From: Gemmatimonadota bacterium
Lineage (GTDB): Bacteria; Gemmatimonadota; Gemmatimonadetes; Longimicrobiales; Gaopeijiaceae
Length of the DNA stretch: 38,280 nt
Assembly: GCA_009841165.1 (NCBI GenBank)
Contig: VXMI01000082.1
Span: 1-38,280, forward strand
Reading direction: 5' to 3'
The position numbers and the translations under genes are program-made. This document shows positions 32,003-38,280 of the stretch, piece after piece (the first letter of the stretch is position 1; every line of letters starts with the position of its first letter). The notes under the pieces were generated by a model, which was given only the letters and a program-made list of their open reading frames with translations, was not told the DNA's origin and did no database searches.

Positions 32003-32308
32003 TCAGCCCCGAACCAGGCAACTCCACGACGTGTGGTCGCCCTTGTGCCGGTTGTTCTGCCACTGAAGGGGCTGAAGATTCGACAGCTCGTCTCCACCCC
32101 CTATTGCGACCGGCAGCACATGGTCCACCTCCCAGCCGTGCTGGGAGCTTGTGTTTCCGTGCAGGTCGCGTCGCATCACCGCGCCGCATACGTCCCTTCG
32201 CCACTGGCGCGCGTCGTAATCCGGGATCGGCACGCCCTTTTGCCAGACTGCCTCCACGGTTGCCGGCGAAAAGCTGTGGCCGCGTCGGTTGGTGTTGCGG
32301 TATCTCAT
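32003..32308 (-). CDS. HNH endonuclease
   Basis: A 101-residue single-domain nuclease. The HNH motif is EVDHVLPVAIGGGDELSNLQPL followed by QNNRHKGD: H63 as general base after D62, N77, and N86/H88 in the final helix. C41 (VCGAVM) precedes it but the usual second zinc cysteine is absent. ATG 32308 is used; AGGAG lies about twelve bases upstream. It is the first gene of the four-gene operon, with 46 bases to the GIY-YIG-like gene, and a good promoter lies about 110 bases upstream. It would cut or nick DNA. Confidence 0.83.
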   Translation of the reverse strand: MRYRNTNRRGHSFSPATVEAVWQKGVPIPDYDARQWRRDVCGAVMRRDLHGNTSSQHGWEVDHVLPVAIGGGDELSNLQPLQWQNNRHKGDHTSWSCLVRG

Positions 32309-32634: not shown

Positions 32635-33342
32635 TCACAGGAGAGTGGGCTGGTCGGTGACGTACCCCGCCGATTCCAGAGCTATTGCCATCGCGTGGCC
32701 AGATACCTCGAAGCAATCGCACAGGGACGTACCGATGCTCCGCGTCGTTCGCCGGGCCAGATCGGTCGCCGTGGTGTGAACGCTATCCGCAGGGTTCGTT
32801 GCGACCGGCGGTTGTCCGAAGCGGCGAGCGAACTCCTGCCGGAGACCCGATGCGGGAATCAGCAAGGAAGCGGCGAAACGGTTGGCCTGGACCTCTTCCG
32901 GCGGCGAGACGGACGCCGTGGCGAAGACGTTGCGGTGCAGGCTGATCATGCGATCCTGCGCGTCCGCCGGGCCGAACAGTCCGTGTGACGCGCCAGCGTC
33001 CGACTGAAGGTAAAGCGGCCGGTGCAGCACCCAATGCCCGATCTCATGGGAAACCGTGAACCGGTATCTCCCCTTTCGTCGTCCCCTGCTGTGTGGATCC
33101 TTGAGGCTAGCGCAGATCTCAATCCGATTTCGAAAAGGCCACATCTGCCCCAGGATGCGATCACCGTCCTTTCGCCCGAGGACGCGCTCGTCGTCGAAAG
33201 CGAGCTGCTCCTCCTCGGCGAGCACGTCAAACAATATGGTCTCGAGGTCCACAGGGACGGGGATTTCGGCGCCGAACGCGCGCGTCAGCAGACCCTCGGC
33301 GGCCCGCACGATGTCCTTGGGTGGCAGGTAGGGGTACTTCAC
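32635..33342 (-). CDS. ImmA/IrrE-family metallopeptidase
   Basis: A 235-residue zinc peptidase with RFTVSHEIGHWVLH (H99, E100, H103) and the following conserved segment EVQANRFAASLLIPASGLR. The N-terminal 60 residues carry the family's usual helix-strand lead (IVRAAEGLL, PVDLETILFDVL). Such proteins pair with XRE regulators and cleave them, as ImmA does with ImmR in ICEBs1, or act as toxin-like partners. The start is GTG 33342, overlapping the XRE gene stop in a GTGA. A decayed relative lies at 10984-11310. Confidence 0.87.
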   Translation of the reverse strand: MKYPYLPPKDIVRAAEGLLTRAFGAEIPVPVDLETILFDVLAEEEQLAFDDERVLGRKDGDRILGQMWPFRNRIEICASLKDPHSRGRRKGRYRFTVSHEIGHWVLHRPLYLQSDAGASHGLFGPADAQDRMISLHRNVFATASVSPPEEVQANRFAASLLIPASGLRQEFARRFGQPPVATNPADSVHTTATDLARRTTRSIGTSLCDCFEVSGHAMAIALESAGYVTDQPTLL

Positions 33343-33668
33343 CCATCACCCTCCAACTCCTTAAGCAACCGCTTCTTTCGAGAGTCCGGAAGCTCGTGAA
33401 CCCGCCTGTATAGCGCCACGTCCAGGCCGGACTCCGGGTAAGCCGCTTCCGGCATCCGGCCCGCTAGTCCCAGCAACTCGTCAACATCCAGCGAGAGTTC
33501 CTTCGCCAAGGCCACGAGCGTGGCTTCGCTTACCCTGGGAGCGGGTTTGCTGTTCTCGAGAACCGAAATGAAGGCCGGCGATTTCCGCACCCGCCTGGCT
33601 AGGGCGCGGAGACTGATCCCCATGTCCTTCCTAGCGGTCGATATCCGGTTACCGAGGCTTGACCCCAT
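33339..33668 (-). CDS. XRE-family transcription regulator
   Basis: A 109-residue protein with a cro/C1-type helix-turn-helix at residues 7-65 (ISTARKDMGISLRALARRV, SPAFISVLENSKPAPRVSE) and a short C-terminal helix region. ATG 33668 follows GAGGAGG at five-base spacing. It overlaps the peptidase gene by four bases. Expected role: repress this operon and be the target of the peptidase. The pair resembles phage- and ICE-type control switches as well as toxin-antitoxin modules. Confidence 0.87.
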   Translation of the reverse strand: MGSSLGNRISTARKDMGISLRALARRVRKSPAFISVLENSKPAPRVSEATLVALAKELSLDVDELLGLAGRMPEAAYPESGLDVALYRRVHELPDSRKKRLLKELEGDG

Positions 33669-33852: not shown

Positions 33853-34635
33853 CTACTCATCCAGGCCCGCTGTGTGTTCTCGATGCCACCGCAGGTATTC
33901 GATTCCGGGTCCGTGATCCGGCGAAGCAGGACGCGACAGCACGGTTCCGTCGAGCTCATCAATCGCATCGGATTTGAGTCTGGCCCGGTTCAGACGAAGC
34001 CGACCGTCTGCGGCCACTGCGAAGAGGCCCGCGTCGAACAGTGCGTGATCGTTCCGACAAAGCAAGATACCGTTTGCCGGGTCGAGCCGCTCCTTGTGGT
34101 TGCAGGCAGACCAACGCTTGATGTGAGCCGCATCAAGTGCCTCCACAATAGGAAGCGCGCACACCGCACATCGTGATCGATAGGTCTTGAGCATGGCTTT
34201 CCGGAAGAGGTCCTGTGCAGATCCTCTATCCCTTACGCGTGAGTAGACTTCCCCGGGATCCGCGGTAGACAGGAGTTCGGTGGCCAACTCTTCGATTCGA
34301 GCGCCTGTCGCAGCGTAGAGAAAGGGATTAGACCGGCTTGCCCACGGGTAGTTGAAGACTCGCTCACACCCTTCATCAAATCGCTCCCATTCCCAAGCCG
34401 TAAACCCCTTCCCGGGCCTCCCTGTTCCGTTCACTACCAGGATCGAGAGGGGCGGAAGCTTCTCGCGGATGCAGTATCGATGGATCGGGCCCAAGGCGAA
34501 TCCCACCGCCCTATGATGGATTCCGAGTGGTTGCCCGATCTCTTTGTAACGCAGGCGCCTGCGCTCTCCGGCAGCGCGTGTGAGCTCGTTCCAGGCAAGA
34601 TATGCCCGTTCCTCGTGGTTGGGCCTATCGTTCAA
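33853..34635 (-). CDS. HNH endonuclease with N-terminal MGMT-like winged-helix domain
   Basis: A 260-residue protein. The TTG start at 34635 has GGAGG seven bases upstream. Residues 10-90 form a domain with RYKEIGQPLGIHHRAVGFALGPI and REKLPPLSILVVNG, resembling the DNA-binding half of alkyltransferase-like proteins; the PCHR active-site motif is absent. Residues 150-210 are an HNH domain with zinc cysteines (C156, C159), AAH (H171), N188 in PANGILL and CRNDHALFD (C193, H197). This combination is a known layout for stand-alone restriction-like HNH proteins. It may read modified or damaged DNA. No methyltransferase lies beside it. Confidence 0.82.
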   Translation of the reverse strand: MNDRPNHEERAYLAWNELTRAAGERRRLRYKEIGQPLGIHHRAVGFALGPIHRYCIREKLPPLSILVVNGTGRPGKGFTAWEWERFDEGCERVFNYPWASRSNPFLYAATGARIEELATELLSTADPGEVYSRVRDRGSAQDLFRKAMLKTYRSRCAVCALPIVEALDAAHIKRWSACNHKERLDPANGILLCRNDHALFDAGLFAVAADGRLRLNRARLKSDAIDELDGTVLSRPASPDHGPGIEYLRWHREHTAGLDE

Positions 34636-34791
34636 TTCCGGGCCTCCGCCGAACGTGTGGTTGTCGAGTAGCCTGTGGCGACATCAAGTCTCCGAGGAAA
34701 CTAAGGCGAGTTCGCGTCTCGACTCTACAGAACTCTAGATCCCGAGGCCTTCAGCAGCATCCTGCTGAGTCCGACGGATGCCGTCCACTGA

Positions 34792-35532
34792 TTCCGATTC
34801 GTTGCGTTCGAATTCAAGCGCGAGAAGCTCACGAGGGGCCACCGTCGCCCAGGTGCTGGACTACTGTACCTACCTGGAGACCCTGCCGGACTCGGAAATC
34901 GGAACCCTTCCGACCCAGCGATCCGCCAAGGACGGCGTCGAGCGCATGGGGGACTTCGAGGAGTGGTACGGAAGCCAGAGGGGAGAGTCTCTCAGGCCCG
35001 TCAGGATGGTCCCGGTCGGCCTCGGCCTCGATGCGATCCCCCACCGAATGGTGTCCCAACTGGCGGACAGGGCCATCGATATCCTCCTGGTGACCTTCCA
35101 TGGCTACGTTCACGACCACGAGATGCTGTTGGCCAGGCAGGTACGGGCTGCGGACGATACCCGCACGTCGTCTGCGGGTCCGCCAACCTCGTCCGACCTG
35201 AATCGGAAGGCCACCGAGCACGGAGTCGCGGCGATCTGGCAGGATGCACGAGAATCACTGGACCACAGTGTTCGGACGTACTACACGAAATCCGGCATCA
35301 CCTGCCTGCAGCGGACGACCACCCTGCCCGATGGCGTGCGTGTCCGCGGGTCGCACTGCGTAACGATCGGCGAGGCCGGGGAAATCCGGATCACGTTCTA
35401 TCCCGGCGGCCGTCGACCTGGGCTACGAGGAGTTCGAGCAGCTCAGGGGTGCGATTCCATTCGAGGGCGGGAAGCCCCCGAACGCGCTTGGGACGCGATG
35501 GGCAATGAATCAGTGGTATTGCCGGTGGGAGG
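34792..35532 (+). pseudogene. Frameshifted, N-terminally truncated nuclease-like gene
   Basis: Three frames read in turn give one coherent protein: FVAFEFKREKLTR, then after a shift at the GGGG run (34835-34838) ATVAQVLDYCTYLETLPD and VPVGLGLDAIPHRMVSQLADRAIDILLVTFHGY, then after a second shift at the CCC run (35402-35404) AVDLGYEEFEQLRGAIPFEGG to NQWYCRWEG. The EFKRE with the following AQ.LDY resembles the E-x-K end of NucS/PD-(D/E)XK nucleases. The N-terminal part with the catalytic Asp is missing. Both shifts are single extra bases in homopolymers. The family call is moderately sure; that the gene is broken as it stands is clear. Confidence 0.6.
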
Positions 35533-35633
35533 GGGGGAGACGAGGGCGGCGATGGCGGTTGCGGCCGGGGTGGCCGCGCCGAACTGCAGCGAGTGGGAAT
35601 CGGCGCGAGGGGAGGTTGACCCGGGTCACGCGG
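35518..35633. repeat. Intergenic repeat, copy B
   Basis: About 116 bases that align with copy A (30624-30741) over their full length. It lies at the decayed end of the nuclease pseudogene. The final block reads GAGGTTGACCCGGGTCACGCGG. Its inverted repeat, TGACC-CG..GGTCA, sits in the same place as the one in copy A but with a different stem sequence, which suggests that the pairing rather than the bases is kept. Confidence 0.5.
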
Positions 35634-35782
35634 TGGTGGGGTCGTCGCGGAGGGCGGTCGCTGTGCGGCACGACGGGGCATCCCGGCGGAAAGCGCGCCG
35701 GGCCCACAGTATCAAGCCGCACTTCCCTGTGACTGCATGTTGGTCGTCCACTACCCAACTTCATAGACCGCCAGGATACCCC

Positions 35783-35899
35783 ATGAAGCATCCCAAGTTC
35801 AACGCGAAGAAGACGCATTCGGTTACCGTTAAGCTTGCCCGTTCGCTTCGGCGACTCGGATACCGGATCGGACTTCCCGAGAAGGAGGTCAGGCGTTAG
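35783..35899 (+). CDS. Small basic protein, uncertain
   Basis: A 38-residue frame starting at ATG 35783 after AGGAT. It is strongly basic (KFNAKKTHSVTVKLARSLRRLG, ending EKEVRR). It lies 41 bases upstream of the DUF5131 gene in the same direction. It could be a leader or small regulator of that operon, or chance. I recognise no family. Confidence 0.25.
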   Translation: MKHPKFNAKKTHSVTVKLARSLRRLGYRIGLPEKEVRR

Positions 35900-35940
35900 A
35901 TTGAGTATTCGGTGTCTTTTCGGTCCTACTAGGAGACTCG

Positions 35941-36711
35941 ATGTCGACACGTACTGGAATCGAATGGACAGATGCGACTTGGAATCCGGTTACTGGATGC
36001 ACCCGCGTCTCCAAGGGATGTGAGAACTGCTATGCGGCTACGCTAGCCCACAGACTGCTCCGTACCCAGTACCTCGCCCGCTTGCCGGTTGTGGATTCCG
36101 ACATCACGCGGGCAGATCCCTTCGCGGTCCGAGTCTGGCCAGAGCGGCTCGCACAGCCCGAGAAGTGGCGCGACCCGAGAATGATCTTCGTCAACAGCAT
36201 GAGCGATCTGTTTCACTCCCATGTCCCGACCGACTACGGGCGACGCGTCTTCGCTACCATGCTTCGGGCGAACTGGCACACCTATCAGATACTCACCAAG
36301 CGTCCCGCACGCGCGCTTCGCTTCTGGACAGACAACCGGGATCTCTTTGATGGCGGACCAATACCAGCGCACATTTGGCTCGGCGCCTCGGTCGAAGACC
36401 AGTCCGTGGCGTATCGTGTTCGCCACCTGCGACGTGTTCCCGCCACCGTTCGCTTCCTTTCCTGTGAGCCCCTCATCGGTCCACTGCGACTTGACCTGAC
36501 GGGGATCCACTGGCTGATAGCTGGTGGAGAGAGCGGGCCAGTCAGGCGACCCATGAAATCCGAGTGGGCCATTGAACTTCGCAATCAGTGCCAAGCCGCC
36601 GAGGTCCCGTTCTTCTTCAAGCAGTGGGGTGGGCGCACACCGAAGGCGGGTGGCAGAGAGCTTGAGGGCAGGTTGTGGGATGACATGCCCAAGGTGGTGA
36701 CTGCTCGATGA
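35941..36711 (+). CDS. DUF5131 (phage Gp37/Gp68-type) three-Cys-motif protein
   Basis: A 256-residue protein of the DUF5131 family. It opens with GIEWTDATWNPVTGC and carries the three cysteines C20, C27 and C30 in a Cys-x6-Cys-x2-Cys-Tyr-Ala motif, like an iron-sulfur binding site of radical-SAM type. Other family landmarks are MIFVNSMSDLFH, YQILTKRP, IWLGASVEDQ, FLSCEPLIGPL, WLIAGGESG and the C-terminal PFFFKQWGG. ATG 35941 follows AGGAG. It overlaps the TcmP gene in an ATGA, the standard partner arrangement. The substrate is unknown; nucleic acid or nucleotide chemistry is likely. Confidence 0.9.
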   Translation: MSTRTGIEWTDATWNPVTGCTRVSKGCENCYAATLAHRLLRTQYLARLPVVDSDITRADPFAVRVWPERLAQPEKWRDPRMIFVNSMSDLFHSHVPTDYGRRVFATMLRANWHTYQILTKRPARALRFWTDNRDLFDGGPIPAHIWLGASVEDQSVAYRVRHLRRVPATVRFLSCEPLIGPLRLDLTGIHWLIAGGESGPVRRPMKSEWAIELRNQCQAAEVPFFFKQWGGRTPKAGGRELEGRLWDDMPKVVTAR

Positions 36712-37580
36712 ACGAAAACTCCGACCGCAACCCCATATTGGAGTTCGAAGACGATGGACTCCATACACCGTCTATCAAGGAGCACTCTCTACGAAAAATC
36801 AGGTTGCACAACTATTATGTGACCCTCTTTAGCACAGCCATGAAGAACAAGTGGCCTCAGCGAGCGTATCTGGGTTTGTACTCGGGAGCAGGCCGGGCAC
36901 GCGTGACCGAGACCGGGAAGATCGTGGCCACAACAGCCGTCTCGGCGCTCGCTGTAGCGGACCCTTTCACCAAGTACATCTTCGTCGACAACAACCGCGA
37001 ATGCATCGCGGCGCTGAAGGCCCGCGCTAGTGCTCTAGACAAGGGTCTTGACGTGAGCTTCATTAAGAAGGATGTCTCGACAGCGGTTCCTGCAATCACC
37101 AAAGCGATGCCGTCGTTCAGCAAGAACCGGGGCCTGCTATCGTTTTGTTTCGTGGACCCGTTCTCCGCTGAGCTGGACTTCTCGGTCTTCAAGGAGCTCG
37201 GTAGCCAATACAAGATGGATTTCCTTGTACTGCTGATGCTCGGTCGCGACGTCAGGACGAATTTTCGCCGCTATCTGGAAGACGAGAACGATACGCGCAT
37301 CGCCAAACTCATTGATGACGAGAACTGGCGGGAGGAATGGGCGGATCGCGGATATCAGGCCAGAAATGTAGTTCGGTTCATGCTCGATAAGTTCAACCAA
37401 GCGATGGAGCGAGTCGGGTATAGTGCCGTTAGGCCTGATGATGCCCATCCGATTCGGTTGCTCGAGAAGAACAAGAACGTCCTGCTCTACTACCTGGTGC
37501 TGTACAGCAAGCATCCTTTGGGACGAGCCTTCTGGGATGCTACCCGCCGCGGGACTGACGAACAGTTATCACTACTATGA
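36708..37580 (+). CDS. tcmP: Three-Cys-motif partner protein TcmP
   Basis: A 290-residue protein of the TcmP family, found together with DUF5131 proteins. The N-terminal part has S-adenosylmethionine-binding-like features: YLGLYSGAGRARV (about 54-66) as motif I, IFVDNN at 91-96 as a second strand, and FCFVDPFS at 147-153 in the place of the DPPY-type catalytic motif. It may be a nucleic-acid methyltransferase, or may use the same fold to bind its partner. Further on are FLVLLMLGRDVRTNF and a helical C-terminus. Its start overlaps the DUF5131 stop. It ends 142 bases before a convergent HNH gene. Confidence 0.85.
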   Translation: MNENSDRNPILEFEDDGLHTPSIKEHSLRKIRLHNYYVTLFSTAMKNKWPQRAYLGLYSGAGRARVTETGKIVATTAVSALAVADPFTKYIFVDNNRECIAALKARASALDKGLDVSFIKKDVSTAVPAITKAMPSFSKNRGLLSFCFVDPFSAELDFSVFKELGSQYKMDFLVLLMLGRDVRTNFRRYLEDENDTRIAKLIDDENWREEWADRGYQARNVVRFMLDKFNQAMERVGYSAVRPDDAHPIRLLEKNKNVLLYYLVLYSKHPLGRAFWDATRRGTDEQLSLL

Positions 37581-37722
37581 TTCGAGTCAGCCCGTCAGTG
37601 GCCCGGACGTTTCACCAGAAGCCCATTTCATCCCAGCAGCGGCGAAGGGAGTTCATGGACCCGCGGCCGTAGAAGTACTGAAGGATCTGCTCTCGGATTC
37701 TGTCGTTGGGATTCACCTCACC

Positions 37723-38280
37723 TCACCCCCGGAACCGATTCTCATTGTGCCATTCCAAGTGCTCTCGCCCCGGGCGATGCTCGGAGCTCCTGGGAACCCA
37801 CAGCTCCGTTCCACCCAGGTCGTAGTAGTACTCGCCGTCGTCGAAGTCCGTGTGGATGTGGCCGCTTACCTCAAGCTCGTAGTCTGGTGTGACCGTCACG
37901 TAGCCGGCATCGAACAGCTTGTGGATGTCGGAGCGCAGCAGTAGTCCGTTCCTGACGTAGTGCTTTGGCTCTTCCTTGAAGGGCCGAATGTGAGCCGCCT
38001 CGAGCGCCGGAAGCGCCTTCTCGCGTGTTACGGCGCACTGCCTCCCGTACACGTCGGCGACGACCGTCCGGAAGATCCCCTGCCCTACCCGGGGCCTCAC
38101 GGGCACCGGGTCGCCGTAGCCACCGGGGAGATCGAGCCAGCTGTCCGGCTTGGGCTCCGAGACGATGGTTCCGCGCAGGCGATTAGACACCTGCGCCCAC
38201 AGCGTCCGGCCGATCTCCGCTCGCAGTCCGTATTCCAGCCATGCCGACCACCGATTCCGCCAAGCCGATCGCAGATTCCA
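37723..38280 (-). CDS. HNH endonuclease (N-terminus beyond window)
   Basis: The frame is open to the right edge of the window, so the N-terminus is missing; a GTG at 38190 lies inside the coding part. The C-terminal 150 residues are a well-known HNH type: PVPVRPRVGQGIFRTVV, YGRQCAVTREKALPALEAAH, RNGLLLRSDIHKLFDAGYV and a final EHLEWHNENRF. The catalytic His (AAH), Asn (RNG) and the later DIHKLFD are present. The upstream visible part (WLEYGLRAEIGRTLW) is helical and unassigned. Third HNH gene within 6.3 kb. Confidence 0.83.
   Translation of the reverse strand, partial: WNLRSAWRNRWSAWLEYGLRAEIGRTLWAQVSNRLRGTIVSEPKPDSWLDLPGGYGDPVPVRPRVGQGIFRTVVADVYGRQCAVTREKALPALEAAHIRPFKEEPKHYVRNGLLLRSDIHKLFDAGYVTVTPDYELEVSGHIHTDFDDGEYYYDLGGTELWVPRSSEHRPGREHLEWHNENRFRG

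Follow-up and report, generated by a model that had tools for sequence, protein, structure and literature searches.

A near-obligate DUF5131-TcmP gene pair in mobile settings, predicted to join a radical SAM enzyme to a methyltransferase

The closest known system to the gene pair analysed here is the PADLOC candidate PDC-M41 (also PDC-M30), and its second component is the subject of an NCBIfam family named TcmP, the three-Cys-motif partner. Both proteins of our pair match the PDC-M41 components, the TcmP protein partially, and their genes are adjacent, so pairs of this kind are already known and their defence function has the standing of a candidate. Our literature searches found no paper that names PDC-M41, nor any account of an activity, a modified base or resistance to phage for the pair; term searches in the text of two papers gave no mention of TcmP in PMC13381803 and none of PDC in PMC9252829. 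What is new here are the fold assignments and the population evidence.

The window, by which we mean the whole stretch of DNA analysed, is one entire contig of 38,280 bases, and its relevant features are collected in Table 1. A first-pass annotation made from the letters alone had proposed a three-Cys, radical-SAM-like DUF5131 protein with a methyltransferase-like TcmP partner, lying in a nuclease island. The pair itself is real by simple profile matching as follows: the DUF5131 protein matches PF07505 over residues 5-250 with 310.1 bits (cut-off 28.9) and PDC-M41B with E 1.3e-93 in PADLOC, its partner matches TIGR04474 with 119.6 bits (cut-off 53) and, over residues 63-212, PDC-M41A with E 6.6e-14, and the two genes share an ATGA overlap on the plus strand. 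The obligate look of the pair and its defence-gene setting bear out part of the first-pass reading, and PADLOC lists both proteins as PDC-M41.

Table 1. Features of the window that bear on the DUF5131-TcmP pair
Feature	Position	Strand	Basis
DUF5131 (phage Gp37/Gp68 family), 256 aa	35941..36711	+	PF07505, PDC-M41B, predicted model
TcmP (three-Cys-motif partner), 290 aa, class I methyltransferase by prediction	36708..37580	+	TIGR04474, PDC-M41A, predicted model
HNH_2 endonuclease, neighbour, not counted into the pair	37723..38280	-	PF13391, 50.2 bits
Second HNH_2 endonuclease, neighbour, not counted into the pair	33853..34635	-	PF13391, 45.5 bits
Small HNH	32003..32308	-	Profile match
Open frame 5' of the pair	34778..35899	+	34841-35180 resembles PDC-S11, remainder looks frame-broken
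CapH/CapP-like regulator and IrrE-type protease pair, adjoining an HNH_2 gene	32635-33668		PADLOC, E 2e-10 and 4e-16

The genes to the left of the pair (the PDC-S11-like frame, HNH_2, the CapH/CapP-like genes and the small HNH) form a defence-gene neighbourhood. The PDC-S11 match in the open frame immediately upstream covers only residues 22-134 of 373 (E 4.2e-9 in PADLOC), and within 34778-35570 the PDC-S11-like first part is seemingly continued in another frame; this stretch is likely a decayed defence gene. The "small basic ORF" that had been marked at 35783-35899 is the tail of this longer frame; it shows no conservation and has no relative among the loci compared (best E 0.88 once copies of the window are set aside), and we rejected it. 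The HNH gene convergent on the pair was correctly recognized and lacks its 5' part, because it runs off the right edge of the contig, which stops at base 38280. The other two flanking HNH genes are equally real; both lie outside the 35783-38280 stretch in which the flanking nucleases had been placed. Farther to the left, a trypsin-like protease at 30989-31735 is similar to the protease part of the RT-Protease and PDC-M35A models, and a 1429-residue protein at 23354-27643 contains a Big_2 domain and many leucine-rich repeats.

The pairing of DUF5131 with TcmP is near-obligate. In the family to which the window belongs TcmP is present in 23 of 121 genomes, and it directly follows DUF5131 in 23 of 24 loci (one of these TcmP genes is cut by a contig end); in the 24th, in genome G047, DUF5131 is followed by pieces of TcmP in two frames. 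Among 80 loci from named genomes of many phyla, 68 have TcmP within 500 bp of DUF5131, and in these it lies downstream on the same strand (43), converges on DUF5131 (18), lies upstream (4), diverges (1) or is fused to it (2), both fusion proteins carrying both sets of motifs. The remaining 12 have no TcmP within 500 bp, and two of the 12 end less than 200 bp from the gene. Divergence in one protein tracks divergence in the other (Mantel r 0.39 over 82 pairs, with 0 of 2000 permutations as high), at a mean identity over these pairs of 56% for DUF5131 versus 22% for TcmP.

What kind of enzyme might DUF5131 be? Its C20, C27 and C30, the three cysteines noted at first pass, and a GGESG at residues 195-199 are invariant in 53 of 53 sequences, and its predicted model (pLDDT 89.9) has a radical SAM barrel to which the three cysteines would add a putative [4Fe-4S] cluster site. 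In fold comparison of this model radical SAM entries occupy the first 19 rows, of which the top six are spore photoproduct lyase (Z 12.5-12.7, 193-195 residues aligned at ~2.9 Å; Foldseek E from 2.4e-3), and the next radical SAM fold is that of viperin-like enzymes at Z 10.7. Spore photoproduct lyase is thus the nearest solved fold, yet it is only ~12% identical, and DUF5131 is the shorter protein; a sequence search of the PDB with DUF5131 gave chance matches only, so that the likeness is one of fold alone. The classical radical SAM cysteine spacing is C-x3-C-x2-C, and that of DUF5131 is C-x6-C-x2-C. A second radical SAM family, TIGR04471 (Radical SAM mobile pair protein A), matches DUF5131 with 55 bits, far below its 355-bit cut-off, and copies on Bacteroides plasmids were found by tblastn at 26%; from its name we take the partner of TIGR04471 to be another pair protein and not TcmP. 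From the predicted model we propose, as a new assignment, that DUF5131 is a radical SAM enzyme whose barrel is most like that of spore photoproduct lyase.

The predicted model of TcmP (pLDDT 90.4) has a class I methyltransferase fold, whose best matches are RlmJ and Trm1, tied at Z 14.9, with many such enzymes at 12-13. RlmJ, the 23S rRNA m6A2030 methyltransferase, is also weakly detected from the TcmP sequence (E 0.04), and hhalign gave 92% for TcmP with RlmJ versus 1% for the control RsmJ. The catalytic-type residues are strongly conserved: G60 and D150 are kept in 82 of 82 TcmPs, K30 in 81 (with one gap), and Glu or Asp at position 94, which aligns with RlmJ E118, in 81. D150 aligns with the catalytic D164 of RlmJ, whose D164A and K18A mutants are inactive according to PMC3814359. 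K30 lies in the matching first helix, and several TcmPs read KH there as in RlmJ K18-H19; its equation with K18 is only a guess, because the sequence alignment puts it five residues off. The window protein reads SGAG and VDPF as the first-pass annotation had claimed. Motif IV in the family is DPF[GS], with P151 in 69 of 82, versus DPPY in RlmJ, and the RlmJ-like DPP[YFW] pattern is not found, so the methylated base and atom cannot be named and we do not file TcmP as an m6A enzyme; TcmP also lacks a long stretch that RlmJ has between motif I and GSP. The subfamily of the window differs from the usual TIGR04474 protein by DPFS in place of DPFG and by Gly in place of the acid before motif I (residue 56, bases 36873-36875; Gly in 8 of the 82 TcmPs, an acid, Asp or Glu, in 73 and Arg in one). 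By prediction TcmP resembles an RNA adenine methyltransferase, RlmJ, an assignment that is also new here, and both folds together with the motifs agree with the first-pass suggestion that nucleic-acid modification is the likely chemistry.

That suggestion was joined to a second one, that the HNH nucleases may be restriction partners of the pair, in which case a base mark set by the pair would protect DNA and HNH would cut unmarked DNA. We counted HNH_2 genes within 5 kb of the pair. Of 29 HNH_2 places in the 23 family genomes (91.7 Mb), four are near a pair; the window accounts for two of them, and G019 and G002 for one each. HNH_2 is thus near 3 of 24 pairs in the family (2 of 23 if the window is left out). 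The latter value is above the genome-wide rate (2 observed versus 0.085 expected, P 0.003), a mild excess such as the sharing of defence hot spots would produce by itself. A second HNH profile, PF01844, shows no excess: of its 138 places in the same genomes (140 were used in the estimate) two are near pairs, one of these being the pair of the window. In other genomes none of 50 pairs has HNH_2 beside it, although 45 HNH_2 places were found there; the 50 were taken from the 68 named loci in which TcmP adjoins DUF5131, and same-contig status was judged by coordinates, with the eight numerically possible places read. An HNH pattern scan missed the HNH of L036 and was thus too strict to serve as a test. 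In two other family genomes a relative of the window-end HNH (89% and 75% identical to it) lies two genes upstream of DUF5131, which favours a restriction partnership, but five of the seven close relatives of this HNH (47-78%) lie away from any pair, and in the window the HNH is on the opposite strand and differs in GC content (64.3% versus 57.3% for the pair). HNH_2 is thus not a regular neighbour, and random neighbours in other genomes, which the first-pass annotation had named as the outcome that would refute it, were largely what we found. On these counts we rejected HNH as partner of the pair; restriction-modification with HNH is largely refuted as a general rule and highly improbable as an explanation, and the HNH genes beside the window pair are mostly a local coincidence. 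Both HNH_2 proteins of the window match NF045808 (PT-DNA-restricting HNH) below its cut-off of 180 (62 and 56 bits) and in the C-terminal part only, one of them being cut by the contig end. In two genera the same gene order, HNH_2, a 217-residue gene and DUF5131-TcmP, is seen (L038 6240-8765 and L036 6027-8651), with a TcmP of a different subtype from that of the window.

The pair travels as mobile cargo: in all 22 family loci that have 3 kb or more of flank its GC content is lower than that of the flanks (mean difference 5.3 points), and its neighbours vary from one locus to the next. Three family loci (L045-L047) occupy one shared site among seemingly housekeeping genes, and L030, L032 and L039 share a second site beside an acyl-CoA dehydrogenase, which L056, a locus without TcmP, appears to occupy as well. 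An integrase lies next to the pair in L048 and on a plasmid of P. aeruginosa; in Gordonia phage Pytheas the pair is in the lysogeny region, with integrase/IrrE-like genes on one side and the immunity repressor on the other. The range of DUF5131 and TcmP takes in Gemmatimonadota, Actinomycetota, cyanobacteria, phages and one archaeal MAG, DUF5131 with matches in 160 phage and 402 plasmid records; a phage search with the window TcmP gave no matches, and one with the Pytheas TcmP gave 4 records. On pSymA (L140, 6992-12593) a second TcmP lies next to the phage-defence gene hna, and DUF5131 with a first TcmP is convergent to these two. The second TcmP is presumably SMa2243, a TcmP that PMC12445080 lists in one putative transcription unit with hna; no hna was found near the other loci searched. 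In a PADLOC scan, 259 families (not genes) were matched among 145 neighbours of the pair, five of 150 having been omitted for size, versus 122 among 139 control genes from regions hand-chosen on contigs known from other matches. The random-gene control set also contained defence matches, including a Gabija pair, which makes this neighbourhood test weak. In the family searches we made no further use of the rows for control genomes.

DUF5131 is also found without its partner. Of 80 viral contigs that carry it, 42 have an adjacent TcmP and 38 do not (five of the 38 near a contig edge); taken with the 12 of 80 named loci above, this means that DUF5131 has a role alone somewhere, including in phages. 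In a tree built by a quick method, in which few branches are starred, Pytheas DUF5131 groups with Actinomycetota pairs, that of PhiCh1 stands apart on a long branch, and four phages without TcmP, which have DUF5131 in an early/replication cluster, form a separate group (85%, not starred). The neighbours of such lone phage genes are RecT, SSB, replication initiators or DNA methylases. The cysteine motif is kept in all 34 lone copies read. The phage loci L135-L139 have DUF5131 alone, in early/replication regions, and in two of them a tiny DNA-binding or HTH gene immediately precedes it.

How can these observations be accommodated? Our best explanation, to which we give a probability of roughly 0.45, is that the pair is a mobile, nuclease-free module of two enzymes that acts on nucleic acid, probably in defence. 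DUF5131 and TcmP would act as one complex, in which TcmP, the fast-diverging part, would bind a base and methylate or present it and DUF5131, the constant part, would perform a radical step on the same base, and the outcome would hinder phage growth in the absence of a dedicated nuclease. This explanation builds on the near-obligate pairing, the fusions, the joint divergence, the predicted folds, the conserved catalytic-type residues, the low GC content and the mobile settings. The defence role is drawn from the PADLOC listing, the genomic settings and the second TcmP beside hna on pSymA. Against this explanation are the L045-L047 site, the Gly before motif I in the window subfamily, the existence of DUF5131 without TcmP, the weakness of the neighbourhood test, the offset of K30 and the finding of hna at only one of the loci searched.

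The pair might instead mend or mature nucleic acid for its element or host as maintenance cargo, a role that would suit both the nearest fold, a base-lesion repair enzyme, and the replication neighbourhoods of lone phage DUF5131; the listing as a defence candidate, the Pytheas lysogeny setting and the fast divergence of the partner argue against such a role, and we consider it unlikely. That divergence, set against the constancy of DUF5131, would be in keeping with an abortive or toxin-antitoxin-like arrangement in which TcmP harms host RNA on infection, DUF5131 restrains it or reverses its mark, and a lone phage DUF5131 is an antidote; the resemblance of TcmP to RNA methyltransferases and the retention of the cysteine motif in lone phage copies point the same way, but gene order is free (18 of 80 loci are convergent), so co-expression is not enforced, and this arrangement seems distinctly unlikely. 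The seemingly broken upstream frame and the split TcmP of G047 could mean that the pair is cargo that lies idle or decays among other relics of genes, which we judge very unlikely, since both window genes are full length, DUF5131 keeps all of its invariant residues and TcmP keeps G60, D150 and K30. Returning to the nuclease-free module, a more specific form of it can be drawn, in which a complex of the methyltransferase and the spore photoproduct lyase-like radical enzyme gives the bases of invading nucleic acid an unusual modification and the DUF5131 of phage replication clusters is a separate lineage, acting in counter-defence or modifying bases on the phage's own behalf; taken as a whole we regard this form as a rather doubtful proposition.

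The predicted folds turn a pair of unknown function into a testable chemistry, that of a SAM-using methyltransferase and a SAM-cleaving radical enzyme acting on a nucleic-acid base. If this is true, the combination of methyltransferase and radical SAM enzyme would be unusual among defence candidates.
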